NCBI GenBank assembly: GCA_003228175.2
Contig: QGNQ01000005.1
Span: 1 to 64,000 of the forward strand
Length of the DNA: 64,000 nucleotides
Reading direction: 5' to 3'
DNA from: Chloroflexota bacterium
GTDB taxonomy: Bacteria > Chloroflexota > Dehalococcoidia > Bin125
Below are positions 37,256 to 43,235 of this stretch, piece after piece. Numbering within the stretch: position 1 is the first letter of the stretch; each line of letters begins with the position of its first letter. Under the pieces are notes generated by a model that saw only the letters and a program-made list of their open reading frames with translations, was not told the DNA's origin and made no database searches. The position numbers and the translations under genes are program-made.

Positions 37256-37261
37256 GGCGTG

Positions 37262-38182
37262 GTGCCCAACGAGAGTGTGTTGCCCGACGCCGAGACATTG
37301 AAGCCCATTGAGGAGGCGGCGATTGCGATCGCCCGGGAGGGCGGCGCGCTGATCCTGGACCGCTTCCGGTCGGCGCTGAACGTGGAGTTCAAGTCGGGCA
37401 ACAACGACGATCCGGTGACGGAGGTCGATAAGGCGGTCGAGGCGCAGGTGCTGGCGCGGGTGAAAGCGGACTTCCCGGACCACGCGGTGTTAGGCGAGGA
37501 GGGGACGAACCACGGCGCCCCGGGCGCGGACTTCGTCTGGGCGATCGACCCGCTGGACGGCACGACGAACTTCATCAATGGGCTGGGGATCTTCTGCTGT
37601 TCGATTGGCGTTCTGTGGCGCGGGGCTCCGGTGGTGGGTGCGTTGTTTCTGCCCGAGGGGCGGCACATCGGTTCCGGCGTGTACCACTCGCGCCGCGGCG
37701 GTGGCGCGTACTTCGAGGACGAGCGCTTCGAGTTTCGCACGCCGACGCTGCCGGTGGGGTCGCGGATCAGTTCGGTGCCGGCGGGGCTGACGGGTGTCGA
37801 CGGTCGCAAGGGGCGGTATGCGTTCGGCACGGTGCGCACGCTGGGGAGTTCCGCGGCGGAGCTGGTCCTGACGGCGGAGGGGACGTTCCAGGTAGGCGTA
37901 TTTCACAGCCTGCGGATCTGGGATGTGGCGGCGGGGGCGGCGATCTGCAAGGAGTCGGGCGCGGCGGTGTGGGTGCGTCGGGACGGCGGGGCGCCCTGGG
38001 AGGAGTTGCAGCACTTCCGCGGGGGTCTCGATCGGGCGCCGAGCCTGGAGGAGCTGCGCGGTTGGAACGATTGGCTGGCGGCGGGCGAGCCCAGCCTGCT
38101 GCCGGAGCTGCCGCAGAGTTTGCAGCGGGCGCAGTCGCGGCGGTCGGTGGTGAAGCGGATGATCTTCGGCAAGGACGACTGA
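37262..38182 (+). CDS. inositol-monophosphatase family protein
   Basis: A 306-residue magnesium-dependent phosphatase of the IMPase/FBPase/CysQ superfamily. Metal-binding motifs are complete: GEEG after strand 3, DPLDGTTNF and the C-terminal WDVAAGAAICKESGA. The substrate might be myo-inositol phosphate, histidinol phosphate, fructose bisphosphate or PAP; the sequence does not decide. The C-terminus carries about 60 extra polar residues (after VWVRRDGG) compared with short family members. A GTG start is likely, probably on a leaderless message. Confidence 0.88.
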   Translation: MPNESVLPDAETLKPIEEAAIAIAREGGALILDRFRSALNVEFKSGNNDDPVTEVDKAVEAQVLARVKADFPDHAVLGEEGTNHGAPGADFVWAIDPLDGTTNFINGLGIFCCSIGVLWRGAPVVGALFLPEGRHIGSGVYHSRRGGGAYFEDERFEFRTPTLPVGSRISSVPAGLTGVDGRKGRYAFGTVRTLGSSAAELVLTAEGTFQVGVFHSLRIWDVAAGAAICKESGAAVWVRRDGGAPWEELQHFRGGLDRAPSLEELRGWNDWLAAGEPSLLPELPQSLQRAQSRRSVVKRMIFGKDD

Positions 38183-38246: not shown

Positions 38247-38918
38247 ATGCGGGTGGTGACGGGCAAGTCGAGCGTAGAGGTGAGCGCCCGGGAGTTTCGC
38301 GCGCGCGCGGCCGGCTATGACGCGTTGTGGCTCGATATCGGTACGGGGGATGGGGCGTTGCCTTATCGGCTGGCGGGATCGTTTCCGGATGTGCTGTGCG
38401 CGGGCCTGGATCCGAACGTGGAGGGGATGGCGGAGAACGCGCATCGGGCGGGGCGCAAGCCCGCGCGGGGCGGCCGGGCGAATTGTGTCTACGTGGCGGC
38501 GTCGGTGGAGGAGCCGCCAGGGGCGCTGGCGGGAGCGGCGCAGGCGATCACGATCAACTTTCCCTGGGCGGCGCTGCTGGCGATCGTGCTGGGGGAGTCG
38601 GATGGCGGGACGCTGACGGGGCTGGGCGCGTTCGCGGCGGAGGACTGTGTGGCGCAACTGTTGGTCAATGAGGTCACGGACCTTCCCGGCGTGCCGTCGG
38701 TGGCTCCGGAGATGCTGCGTGAGCGCGTTGGGCCTAATTTGGCTGCCGCTGGATTCGTCATCGAAAGCTGCGAGTGGCTGGAGCGCGAGGCGCAGGTGCG
38801 CAGCCGATGGGGTGGCCGCCTGATCCGCGGCAGCGGACGTCGGGTGGTGCGGCTGCGGGCGTTGAGGGGGACACCGCCGGCGCGCGCGCTGGCGCTTGTG
38901 GAGGCCGTGAGCGACTAG
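38247..38918 (+). CDS. KamB/NpmA-like 16S rRNA (adenine-1408-N1) methyltransferase homologue
   Basis: A 223-residue class I SAM methyltransferase strikingly like the aminoglycoside-resistance enzymes KamB and NpmA. The N-terminus MRVVTGKSSVEVSAREF parallels that of KamB. The SAM motif WLDIGTGDGALPYRLA is near-identical in pattern. The diagnostic FPW (Trp107, in INFPWAALL) and the second tryptophan (Trp188, in RSRWGGRL), which in the known enzymes clamp the flipped A1408, are both present. Total length equals the family's. The start at 38247 has AGGGGGG eight bases upstream. The GTG at 38241 is less well placed. Native targets and any resistance phenotype are unproven. Its stop overlaps the convergent gene. 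Confidence 0.82.
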   Translation: MRVVTGKSSVEVSAREFRARAAGYDALWLDIGTGDGALPYRLAGSFPDVLCAGLDPNVEGMAENAHRAGRKPARGGRANCVYVAASVEEPPGALAGAAQAITINFPWAALLAIVLGESDGGTLTGLGAFAAEDCVAQLLVNEVTDLPGVPSVAPEMLRERVGPNLAAAGFVIESCEWLEREAQVRSRWGGRLIRGSGRRVVRLRALRGTPPARALALVEAVSD

Positions 38919-39760
38919 CGGCGTGCCTCGACGAGCTTTGACAGGCGGTCGAGCTCCGGCATCACGACGGAGGCGTCGTCTGAGGGCAGTGTGAAGATGA
39001 CGCGTTCGACGCCCATCTGCTCGTAGGCGTCGAGGTCGTCCGGGCTGCCACCGAAGACGGAGGTCGGGATGGTGTCGGGGTCGCGACCGGCGGCGGCGGC
39101 GCGCTCGCGGATGTCGGCCATGCCGCGCTCGATGCGATCGGGGCGGGGGCTGTTGGGCAGCCAGCCGTCGCCCCACTCGGCGACGCGCTGGCGGGCCCAG
39201 CGGCTGCCGGCGCCGATGTAGACGGGGGGGTGCGGGGTTTGGGCAGGCTTGGGGTAGCTGTAGGTCTTGGGCACGGAGACGTAGTCGCCGTGGTACTCGG
39301 CCTCCTCCTGGGTCCAGAGCGCCTTCATGGCGGCGACGCGCTCGGCGGTGACCTGCCAGCGCTTCTCGAAGGGGGTGCCGAGCGGCTCCATCTCCTCGCG
39401 TAGCCAGCCGGCGCCGATGCCGAAGAGGAAGCGGCCACCGGAGAGCAGATCGAGGGTCGCGACGCGCTTGGCGAGGTCGATGGGCTCGTGCTGACTGACG
39501 AGACAGATGCCGGTGCCGATCTTGAGCGTGCTGGTCACGGCGGCGACGCCAGCCAGCAAGGTAAAGGGGTCCTGGCAGCGGAAGTAGGGATCGGGCAGGG
39601 AGCCGTCCGGGGTGCCTGGGAAGGGCGTCTCGCGCTTGACCGGCATGTGCACGTGCTCCGGGACCCAGAAGGAATCGAAGCCGCGCGACTCCACGTCCGG
39701 GGCGAGTTCGAGTACCGGCACGGCCTTATCCGTCGCGAAGATGAAGATGCCGTAGTCCAT
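38915..39760 (-). CDS. LLM-class F420-dependent oxidoreductase (TIGR03619-like)
   Basis: A 281-residue luciferase-like TIM-barrel enzyme, probably using F420. Visible features: MDYGIFIFATD, SFWVPEHVHMP, LKIGTGICLVSQHEPI, DLLSGGRFLFGIGAGW and the C-terminal GVERVIFTLPSDD. This matches the TIGR03619 subfamily of high-GC actinobacteria and Chloroflexota. An AGGAGG Shine-Dalgarno precedes the ATG. The 3' end overlaps the end of the A1408 methyltransferase gene by four bases in a CTAG that supplies both stops. The substrate is unknown. Confidence 0.88.
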   Translation of the reverse strand: MDYGIFIFATDKAVPVLELAPDVESRGFDSFWVPEHVHMPVKRETPFPGTPDGSLPDPYFRCQDPFTLLAGVAAVTSTLKIGTGICLVSQHEPIDLAKRVATLDLLSGGRFLFGIGAGWLREEMEPLGTPFEKRWQVTAERVAAMKALWTQEEAEYHGDYVSVPKTYSYPKPAQTPHPPVYIGAGSRWARQRVAEWGDGWLPNSPRPDRIERGMADIRERAAAAGRDPDTIPTSVFGGSPDDLDAYEQMGVERVIFTLPSDDASVVMPELDRLSKLVEARR

Positions 39761-39820: not shown

Positions 39821-40591
39821 TCAGGCGTCGCTGGGCTTGCGCGCGACGTGCAGGGCGACGCTACCCATGCCCATGCGCTCATAGCGTGCATCGGTGAAGC
39901 CGGTGGCGCGGAGCAGGTCGACGATTGCGTCGGCGGCGGGATGGCCTTCGAGGGACTGGGGCAGGTAGCGATAGGCGGCACGGCTGCCGGAGAGCCAGCC
40001 GGCGACGGGCGTGACGAGTCGTTCGACGCCGAAGCGCGTGACTTGGCCGAGGAGGCCGGGCGGGGGGTGTGTCATGTCGAGGGCGACCATGCGTCCCGCG
40101 GGCCGCAGTACGCGCATCATTTCGGCCAAGGCGGCGGGCAGGTCGACGAGGTTGCGCAGCAGGAAGCCGCTGGTGACGGCGTCGAAGCTGTCGTCCGCGA
40201 AGGGGAGGTGCAGAGCGTCGCTGAGCAGCCAGGTGACGCCACTATCGGCGGCGAGCCCCGGTTTGCCGCGCCCGGCGACGAGCATGGGGCGGGCGAAGTC
40301 GCTGGCGATGACCTGAGCGACGCCGGCGGCGCGCAGATCGCGGGCGAGGTCGCCGGTGCCGGTACCGAGATCGAGCACGATGCCGCCGCGCGGGTCGGCG
40401 TCGACGAGGGCCTCGCGTACGGTCCGTCGTCGCCAGCGGCCATCCATGCCGCCGGTCATGAGACGGTTCATAAGGTCGTAGCGGGGCACGATGCGCGAGA
40501 ACATGGTTTGCACTTCCGCCGCGCGCTGGTCAGGCGGGAGTGGCGTGTCGGAGCCGGGGGCCGGCCGCAGGGGTGGGTGGGACGGCGCCAC
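39821..40591 (-). CDS. menG: demethylmenaquinone methyltransferase (UbiE/MenG)
   Basis: A 256-residue SAM-dependent C-methyltransferase for the last step of menaquinone synthesis. Typical features are MFSRIVPRYDLMNRLMTGGMD, LDLGTGTGDLARDL, SGFLLRNLVDLPAALAEMMRVLRPAG and LPQSLEGHP. The start is set at GTG 40591, because AAGGAG lies seven bases upstream and no better codon precedes the family start. It is divergent from tetR-menB-menA, and the palindrome at 40726-40749 lies between the two, so both arms may answer to the same repressor. Confidence 0.92.
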   Translation of the reverse strand: MAPSHPPLRPAPGSDTPLPPDQRAAEVQTMFSRIVPRYDLMNRLMTGGMDGRWRRRTVREALVDADPRGGIVLDLGTGTGDLARDLRAAGVAQVIASDFARPMLVAGRGKPGLAADSGVTWLLSDALHLPFADDSFDAVTSGFLLRNLVDLPAALAEMMRVLRPAGRMVALDMTHPPPGLLGQVTRFGVERLVTPVAGWLSGSRAAYRYLPQSLEGHPAADAIVDLLRATGFTDARYERMGMGSVALHVARKPSDA

Positions 40592-40725: not shown

Positions 40726-40749
40726 AAAACCGACTGATGAGTCGGTTTT
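40726..40749. promoter_or_regulatory. palindromic operator, TetR type
   Basis: A perfect inverted repeat, AAAACCGACT-GATG-AGTCGGTTTT (10-bp arms, 4-base spacer), sits between the divergent menG and tetR-menB-menA arms. It has the length and symmetry of TetR-family operators, and the tetR gene starts about 25 bases away, so autoregulation is likely. The outer bases GC also nearly match. Confidence 0.75.
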
Positions 40750-40774
40750 GCGACGATCGATGGCGGAGTTTTCG

Positions 40775-41458
40775 ATGCCGGTTCAGCAAGCCCGGGCGCG
40801 CAGCCGACAGCAGAAGATCCTGCGTGCGGCGGCGTCGGTGATCTCGCGTCGCGGGTACCAGGAGGCGGGTATCGAGGAGATCGCGCGCGAGGCGGAGACA
40901 TCCAAGGGGGGCGTGTACTTCCACTTCCCGGGCAAGGAGTCGATCCTGCTGGCGTTGCTGGACCACACGTCCGGGCTGGTACGCGGCAAGGTGGAGCAGG
41001 CGATCGCGGCGGAGTCGGATCCGGTGGCGAAGGCGGACGCGGCGCTGCGCGTGTTGCTGCGCACGCTGGCGAAGCATCGCAGCCTGGCGCGGGTGTTCGC
41101 CGTGGAAGCGGCGGGGGCGGGACCACAGTTCAATGCGCGGGTGGCCGAGATCCAGGACGAGTTCGTGGCGCTGGTGCGAGAGCAGTTGGATGCCGCGGTC
41201 GCGACGGGCGCGATTGTGCCGATGGATACGGCAATCGTCGCGCAGGCCTGGATGGGGGCGCTGGACGCGGTGTTACTGCGCTACGTGACGAGCCGGCCGG
41301 GGCCGGGCCGTCGGTCGCTGGACGAGATTCACGAGACCTTGCGTGCGACGCTGCTGCGCAGCATCGGCGCGCCGGTGCCCGGGGCGGCAGTATCCGTGGC
41401 GGGGGGATCGCCACGTCCCACTAATTCGATCGAAACGAATGGACTGGAGAGACGATGA
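40775..41458 (+). CDS. TetR-family transcriptional regulator
   Basis: A 227-residue repressor. The N-terminal helix-turn-helix has the standard pattern: [18 protein letters not shown], then [19 protein letters not shown], then [10 protein letters not shown]. The C-terminal ligand domain is variable. The start at 40775 is preferred because GGAG lies six bases upstream, but ATG 40760 is in frame as well. The stop overlaps the menB start by four bases (ATGA), so it is the first gene of a tetR-menB-menA operon and probably regulates menaquinone synthesis through the palindrome upstream. The ligand is unknown. Confidence 0.92.
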
Positions 41459-42297
41459 CCACCGAGCAGGCCGTTCCGGCCGTTCCCGCCTGGCAATCGG
41501 AGGGCGACTACGGCGACATTCGCTATCACACCGCGGAAGGCATCGCGAAGATCACGATCAACCGGCCCGAGGTGCGCAATGCGTTCCGGCCGCAGACGCT
41601 GTTCGAGCTGAAGGACGCGTTCACGCGCGCGCACGAGGACCAGGATGTGGGGGTGATCATCCTGACGGGGGAGGGCCCGGACGCGTTCTGCTCAGGCGGT
41701 GACCAGCGCATCCGCGGACATGGCGGCTACGTGGGCGATGACGGAGTGCCGCGGCTCAACGTGCTGGAGTTGCAGCGACAGATTCGGACGCTGCCGAAGC
41801 CGGTGGTGGCGATGGTCGCGGGGTACGCGATCGGTGGCGGGCACGTGCTGCACATCGTGTGTGATCTGACGATCGCGGCGGACAATGCCCGTTTCGGGCA
41901 GACGGGGCCGAAGGTGGGCAGTTTTGACGGGGGCTACGGGGCGACGCTGCTGGCGCGCATCGTGGGCCACAAGAAGGCGCGCGAGATCTGGTACCTGTGC
42001 CGCCAGTACGACGCGCAGCAGGCGCTGGAGATGGGCCTGGTCAACACGGTGGTGCCGCTCGATGAGCTAGAGGCGGAGACGGTGCAATGGTGTCGGGAGA
42101 TGCTGGCGATGAGCCCGACGGCCCTGCGCTTTCTGAAGGCGTCGTTCAACGCCGACACTGATGGGCTGGCGGGGATCCAGCAGTTGGCGGGCGACGCGAC
42201 GCTGCTCTACTACCTGACGGACGAGGCGAAGGAAGGGCGCAACGCGTTCGTGGAGAAGCGCAAGCCGGACTTCAAGCAGTTCACGCGCTTCCCATAG
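41455..42297 (+). CDS. menB: 1,4-dihydroxy-2-naphthoyl-CoA synthase
   Basis: A 280-residue crotonase-fold enzyme. The MenB-specific signatures [29 protein letters not shown] and [13 protein letters not shown] separate it from ordinary enoyl-CoA hydratases. It cyclises O-succinylbenzoyl-CoA. The usual upstream genes menC, menE, menD and menF are not in the window. It is coupled to tetR by ATGA and to menA by an overlap of one base (TAGTG). Confidence 0.95.
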
Positions 42298-43235
42298 TGG
42301 CTGACGCTGGTTCGTCGATGCGTTCAACGGCACCTCCCTCCACGGGACCGCGGGCCCCGATGGGAGCGCGCGTTTGGCTGCTGGCCGCGCGACCGGCGAC
42401 GTTGCCGGCGGCGATCGCGCCGGTGCTGGTGGGCACCGCGGCGGCCACGGTGATTGTGGACTTTCGTGTGGGGCCTTTCGTGGCGGCGCTGATCGCGGCG
42501 ATCTTTATCCAGATCGGGACCAACTACGCGAACGACTTCTCCGACTTCCGGCACGGGGCAGACGATGAAGGGCGGCTGGGTCCGACGCGGGCGACGCAGG
42601 CGGGCTTGGTCAGCGCCAAAGCGATGGCGATGGCGACGAGCGTTGCATTCGCGGTGGCGGGGGGCTTGGGCATCTATCTCACGATTGAGGCGGGCTGGCC
42701 GGTGCTGGTCGTGGGGGTGGGGTCGATCGTGGCCGGGTATCTCTACACGGGCGGCCCTTGGCCGTATGGCTATCACGGTCTGGGCGACCTGTTCGTCTTC
42801 ACCTTCTTTGGTGTGGTGGCGGTGATGGGCAGCTTTTTCGTGCAGGCGGAGCATCTGACCTGGGAGGCGGCGGCGGCGGCGATACCCGTGGGCTGCACCG
42901 TCACGGCGATTCTGGTGGTGAATAACCTGCGCGACGTGCCGACGGACCGTCGGACGGGGAAGCGCACACTGGCGGTGATCTTGGGGCCCGTGTTCGCCCG
43001 GGTCGAGTATGCGTTGCTGTTGATCACGGCGTTCGCGCTTGCGCCGATTTTCGCGGCGGCGGAGCTCATGCCCTGGTGGTCGATGGAGACGTGGCTCGCG
43101 CTGCCGCTGGCGGCGCTGCTGCTGCGCTTGGTGGTGGGTGGGATGGAGGGCGGGGGCTTGAACAAGGTGCTGAAGCTGACGGGGCAGTTGCATCTGCTGA
43201 TGGGCGTGCTGCTGGCGCTGAGCTATCTCTGGTAA
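42297..43235 (+). CDS. menA: 1,4-dihydroxy-2-naphthoate polyprenyltransferase
   Basis: A 312-residue integral-membrane UbiA-family prenyltransferase that joins DHNA to a polyprenyl chain. The first prenyl-diphosphate site is NYANDFSDFRHGADDEGR. The second Asp-rich motif is the NNLRDVPTDRRTGKRTL segment. About eight to nine helices are seen. It starts with GTG overlapping the menB stop. The pathway position follows menB, although DHNA-CoA thioesterase (menI) is not nearby. With menG across the operator this makes a partial menaquinone cluster. Confidence 0.94.
   Translation: MADAGSSMRSTAPPSTGPRAPMGARVWLLAARPATLPAAIAPVLVGTAAATVIVDFRVGPFVAALIAAIFIQIGTNYANDFSDFRHGADDEGRLGPTRATQAGLVSAKAMAMATSVAFAVAGGLGIYLTIEAGWPVLVVGVGSIVAGYLYTGGPWPYGYHGLGDLFVFTFFGVVAVMGSFFVQAEHLTWEAAAAAIPVGCTVTAILVVNNLRDVPTDRRTGKRTLAVILGPVFARVEYALLLITAFALAPIFAAAELMPWWSMETWLALPLAALLLRLVVGGMEGGGLNKVLKLTGQLHLLMGVLLALSYLW

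Follow-up and report, generated by a model that had tools for sequence, protein, structure and literature searches.

The gene at positions 38247-38918 of the window (the whole analyzed stretch of 64,000 nucleotides, from an uncultured member of the Chloroflexota) is a real gene whose product is a genuine member of the m1A1408 16S rRNA methyltransferase family. In the taxonomic family of its host, hereafter the query family, it is chromosomal, vertically inherited and under purifying selection. Antibiotic producers are known to protect themselves by methylating A1408 to m1A1408, and in clinical bacteria this methylation is known as an acquired form of resistance. Environmental, non-clinical enzymes of this type (Kmr, CacKam and UncKam) are already known; what seems to be new is that a whole family of Chloroflexota keeps an inherited chromosomal Kam gene with residue changes of its own. 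Our literature search found no publication linking Chloroflexi with A1408 methyltransferases. From sequence comparisons and a predicted structure, we infer that the inherited Kam enzyme is probably active, that its substrate is A1408 on the 30S subunit and that it is kept either for ribosome protection or as a resident modification of the decoding site.

Gene, family assignment and predicted fold

38247-38918, forward strand: gene of an m1A1408-type (Kam/NpmA family) 16S rRNA methyltransferase, 223 aa (open reading frame, profile, PDB and fold evidence)

The original prediction was a homologue of KamB and NpmA, and this homology was borne out by profile, fold, catalytic residues and tree. The length, the KamB-like N-terminus (MRVVTGK compared to MRRVVGK in KamB), the SAM motif and the two tryptophans W107 and W188 on which it relied were all found in the 223-aa translation. 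The Pfam profile NpmA (PF24675) matches the protein with 168.3 bits (E = 1.9e-49; cut-off 60) over positions 1-212 of its 214 and residues 2-205 of the query. The NCBIfam scores (KamB 110 bits, WarA 86, NpmB 65 and NpmA 62) are well under the strict cut-offs of all four models. Among PDB sequences, the protein matches Kmr (E = 3e-36), CacKam (4e-24), KamB (2e-22) and NpmA (5e-18), as well as NpmB1.

The structure comparison that had been proposed as a check ranked solved Kam/NpmA members, including NpmA, first. The AlphaFold2 model, built from 44 aligned Chloroflexota sequences, has a mean pLDDT of 93.8 and a pTM of 0.91. In the Foldseek search, solved m1A1408 methyltransferase structures (Kmr, CacKam, NpmA, KamB, NpmB1 and UncKam) occupy ranks 1-19 with E-values from 1e-22 to 2e-14 and TM-scores, by query length, of 0.69-0.83. 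The first match outside the family is a TrmB-like protein (1.6e-8, TM 0.55). A class I fold is thus predicted, including the additions specific to this family at the N-terminus and in the beta5/6 and beta6/7 regions; the beta5/6 region is shorter than that of NpmA. Profile searches also gave a weak, sub-threshold similarity to TrmB/Methyltransf_4 over residues 26-71, as would be expected of an unrelated class I methyltransferase, for example a TrmB-like one, resembling the family by chance. However, the full-length Pfam match, the invariant W188/R191 linker and the fact that every solved family structure outranks any other fold make this extremely improbable, and we consider it ruled out by profile, motif and fold.

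Comparison with characterized enzymes

The best match in both sequence and fold (36-38% identity) is Kmr from Sorangium cellulosum So ce56 (PDB 4RWZ and 4RX1), an environmental myxobacterium. Both proteins carry the FPWA motif and the RKPARGG linker but they differ at R37, S193 and Q196-H197 of Kmr, which correspond to A37, R187 and G190-R191 of the query. CacKam from Catenulispora acidiphila (PDB 4X1O, 5BW4 and 5D1N) resembles the query in its fold, SAM pocket, paired tryptophans and most docking residues, but has the essential residues R43 and S202 where the query has A37 and R187, and it groups with KamB in the tree. KamB from Streptoalloteichus tenebrarius (PDB 3MQ2) shares the N-terminus, the fold and the tryptophans (W105 and W193 in KamB); however, it comes from a tobramycin producer and belongs to another branch of the tree, whereas the query genome shows no sign of a 2-deoxystreptamine pathway. 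NpmA (PDB 3MTE, and 4OX9 with the 30S subunit), NpmB1 (7EHF) and WarA have the same fold, tryptophans and linker positions as the query, which is 26-28% identical to NpmA and NpmB1 in the fold alignment. These three are acquired or pathogen-borne resistance genes, whereas the query gene is chromosomal and syntenic. UncKam (PDB 7JLZ), which comes from an uncultured bacterium and is titled an A1408 methyltransferase, is a precedent for environmental members but is more distant from the query (21% identity, TM 0.69).

Active-site and docking residues

38331-38354, forward strand: codons of the SAM-binding motif LDIGTGDG, residues 29-36, including D30 (translation and alignment)
38355-38357, forward strand: codon of A37, which aligns with R43 of CacKam
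38409-38411, forward strand: codon of D55, SAM ribose ligand, D61 in CacKam (alignment and published CacKam work)
38445-38474, forward strand: codons of the basic beta2/3 linker RAGRKPARGG, residues 67-76, a 30S-docking segment in NpmA and CacKam
38565-38567, forward strand: codon of W107, first A1408-stacking tryptophan, W107 in NpmA and W113 in CacKam (alignment)
38796-38843, forward strand: codons of the beta6/7 linker, residues 184-199, with S186, R187, W188, R191 and R198 (alignment)
38808-38810, forward strand: codon of W188, within the beta6/7 linker

The published mutagenesis of CacKam (PMC4705659) served as the yardstick for functional residues. According to the alignment, the query keeps D30 (D36 in CacKam), D55 (D61), E88 (E94), W107 (W113), S186 (S201), W188 (W203) and R191 (R206) and, in the beta2/3 linker, R67, R70, K71 and R74 (R73, R76, K77 and K80); R198 is aligned to R207 of NpmA. 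It therefore has the tryptophan pair (W107/W188) and the two SAM-binding aspartates (D30 and D55) that are universally conserved in this enzyme family. Nine positions are invariant in the 44 Chloroflexota sequences: D30, G32, G34, G36, N79, P106, W107, W188 and R191.

Some residues are peculiar to the query family: (i) A37, where the other Chloroflexota sequences have R (19 of 25) or K (2 of 25) and the four reference enzymes all have R or K, (ii) G190, where others have K or R, and (iii) a basic residue (R or K) gained at position 194. Residue 187 is R or Q in genera g1-g3 and S or T otherwise. Overall, the 30S-docking surface keeps the beta2/3 linker and R191, is devoid of the usual basic residue at A37 and G190, and has gained R/K194. 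Two of the changes seen in the query, A37 (R43) and R187 (S202), fall at positions that are essential in CacKam. Since the R43A and S202A mutants of CacKam lost resistance in an MIC assay (PMC4705659), activity of the query enzyme cannot be assumed. However, the basic pattern is also broken in Kmr (Q196 and H197), which is described as resistance-conferring, judging from a title cited in PMC4705659, so that the query enzyme may still be active.

The beta2/3 linker itself is not present in all homologues. Eleven of them (L038, L076, L078, L079, L080, L081, L082, L083, L084, L085 and L090), from families f61, f63, f71, f74 and f91, keep both tryptophans and lack an eight-residue stretch with the basic docking linker (RKPxKGG); they form a single clade (support 98/92).

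Distribution in Chloroflexota

The gene was detected above the cut-off in 19 of the 20 sampled genomes of the query family, which represent five genera. From the remaining genome (G010), two flanking genes are missing as well: the enoyl-CoA hydratase orthologue (best match 38% identity, compared to 73% in its congener G009) and the 406-aa upstream neighbour typical of its genus. For this reason, an assembly gap is likelier and a real loss of the gene in this genome is unsupported.

In the rest of the class, only two of 41 further genomes gave a match above the cut-off, and 40 of 400 genomes carry a homologue phylum-wide. The gene is present in all eight sampled genomes of family f17 (one copy being fragmentary and below the cut-off) but only in 12 of 61 genomes of f63 and 19 of 61 of f77. 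Its retention is therefore nearly fixed in some Chloroflexota families and patchy in others. The patchiness in f63 and f77 is what repeated loss or transfer would give, in contrast with f1 and f17. In one f17 genome (G035), the homologue (L110) adjoins uvrA, and another genome (G446) harbors two copies.

Neighbourhood and inheritance

37259-38182, forward strand: gene of the inositol monophosphatase family, immediately upstream at a distance of 64 bases from the methyltransferase gene
38915-39760, reverse strand: luciferase-like gene, convergent, with a 4-base overlap with the methyltransferase gene at the stop codons (38915-38918)
39821-40550, reverse strand: ubiE/COQ5-type methyltransferase gene (approximate start), a neighbour conserved across the query family
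40748-43235, forward strand: remainder of the conserved block, with genes for a TetR regulator, an enoyl-CoA hydratase and a UbiA prenyltransferase

The convergent ubiE-type gene lies 0.7-4.6 kb from the methyltransferase gene in 14 of the 19 genomes, with all five genera represented. Thirteen of these genomes continue past ubiE with tetR, enoyl-CoA hydratase and ubiA, always in that order; the contig of the fourteenth (G002) stops in tetR. In three genomes of one sub-branch, ubiE is 8-10 kb away on the opposite side. As for the last two genomes, the contig of G006 ends too soon and G019, from the same sub-branch as these three, has no ubiE within 9 kb. The displacement of ubiE corresponds to a rearrangement in genus g4 (G004, G012 and G017 against the rest) that, in this one sub-branch, places the ubiE block on the opposite side of the gene. 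The inositol monophosphatase gene is a possible operon partner of the methyltransferase gene, the adjacency being found only in genera g1 and g3.

A simple Nei-Gojobori count gave dN/dS ratios of 0.17-0.25 in the six closest pairs. Taken together with the synteny and the single clade formed by the query family (see below), these ratios indicate a resident gene, inherited from the ancestor of the family and kept by selection. Therefore, the housekeeping character proposed in the original prediction holds insofar as it means a resident, vertically inherited gene of its family (19 of 20 genomes, synteny and purifying selection).

The other neighbours encode luciferase-like oxidoreductases and subunits of xanthine-dehydrogenase type. 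In agreement with what had been noted initially, no resistance or antibiotic-cluster gene was found near the gene; its neighbours are metabolic. KamB-type genes of producers lie within aminoglycoside biosynthesis clusters and acquired genes of NpmA/NpmB type are mobile and patchy, whereas this gene has metabolic neighbours, is syntenic and is nearly universal in its family. Furthermore, the query genome (85% complete) carries a single gene of DHQ-synthase type, read as aroB, which argues against 2-deoxystreptamine synthesis. Searches of 72,556 plasmids and 50,697 phages gave no homologue; since distant mobile members such as npmA were not matched either, they exclude only close mobile relatives. 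The idea that the gene is a reservoir of resistance thus receives no backing from mobility. A PADLOC search for an anti-phage role gave no match for the query.

Phylogeny

The tree covered Chloroflexota homologues and four reference enzymes (KamB, CacKam, Kmr and NpmA). Proteins of the query family form one clade (support 100/99), split by genus group and carried by a long stem (0.56 changes per column). KamB and CacKam group with a sequence from Chloroflexota family f75 (97/94), then with f17 (92/89). Kmr joins the query family weakly (63/59) and the placement of NpmA is unresolved. A single clade of the four reference enzymes was rejected (AU test, p = 0.016). Since these enzymes do not form one group opposed to the environmental sequences, the environmental pool appears broader than the resistance set. 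The query family being a branch of its own, and KamB and CacKam grouping with other Chloroflexota homologues, the tree does not favour the proposal that the gene represents an ancestor of the resistance enzymes. On these sequences, the query family appears as a separate branch of environmental diversity rather than as a lineage from which the clinical enzymes demonstrably descend.

The position of KamB and CacKam among Chloroflexota sequences indicates that transfers occurred in the wider enzyme family. Together with the patchy distribution in f63 and f77, it would fit a specialized resistance gene that came by horizontal transfer from a producer of aminoglycosides and was retained under exposure to drugs from neighbouring bacteria. 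However, in the query family the gene is monophyletic, keeps its synteny and is present almost everywhere, and no mobile homologue was found, so this origin is quite improbable; a transfer could still have preceded the ancestor of the family.

Proposed activity and role

Under the preferred reading of an active A1408 methyltransferase, the basic beta2/3 linker would dock the enzyme onto the assembled 30S subunit. A1408 would be flipped out of helix 44 and held between W107 and W188, and the methyl group would be moved from SAM to N1 of A1408. Constitutive resistance of the native ribosome to drugs of the kanamycin, neomycin and apramycin types would follow.

The long stem of the query family, the residues A37, R187 and G190 at positions that are otherwise R/K, S/T and K/R, and the universal retention with no antibiotic genes nearby could also point to a diverged member. 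In such an enzyme, fold and tryptophan clamp would have persisted while the substrate changed or the activity weakened, and its function would be ribosome assembly or tuning rather than resistance; it could modify another nucleotide of the decoding region, act on a precursor 30S or methylate A1408 partially. We regard this as unlikely, because all base-clamping and SAM-binding residues are kept and because Kmr is also off the basic pattern despite being presented as resistance-conferring in the title mentioned above.

If the enzyme does methylate A1408, m1A1408 could even be a standing mark of every ribosome in the query family, with a native role at the decoding site that has nothing to do with making antibiotics or with the clinic; this extension is tentative and rather doubtful. 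The query family, apparently made up of non-producers, holds the enzyme almost without exception, in conserved synteny and under purifying selection, and so makes it possible to test whether m1A1408 has a native function.

In the query genome, a contig end truncates the 16S rRNA gene near position 741, and its 3' end is absent from the assembly. The decoding region is ordinary, with A1408 and A1492/A1493, in the ten relatives whose 16S sequence is complete at the 3' end, and loss of the substrate base was therefore rejected.
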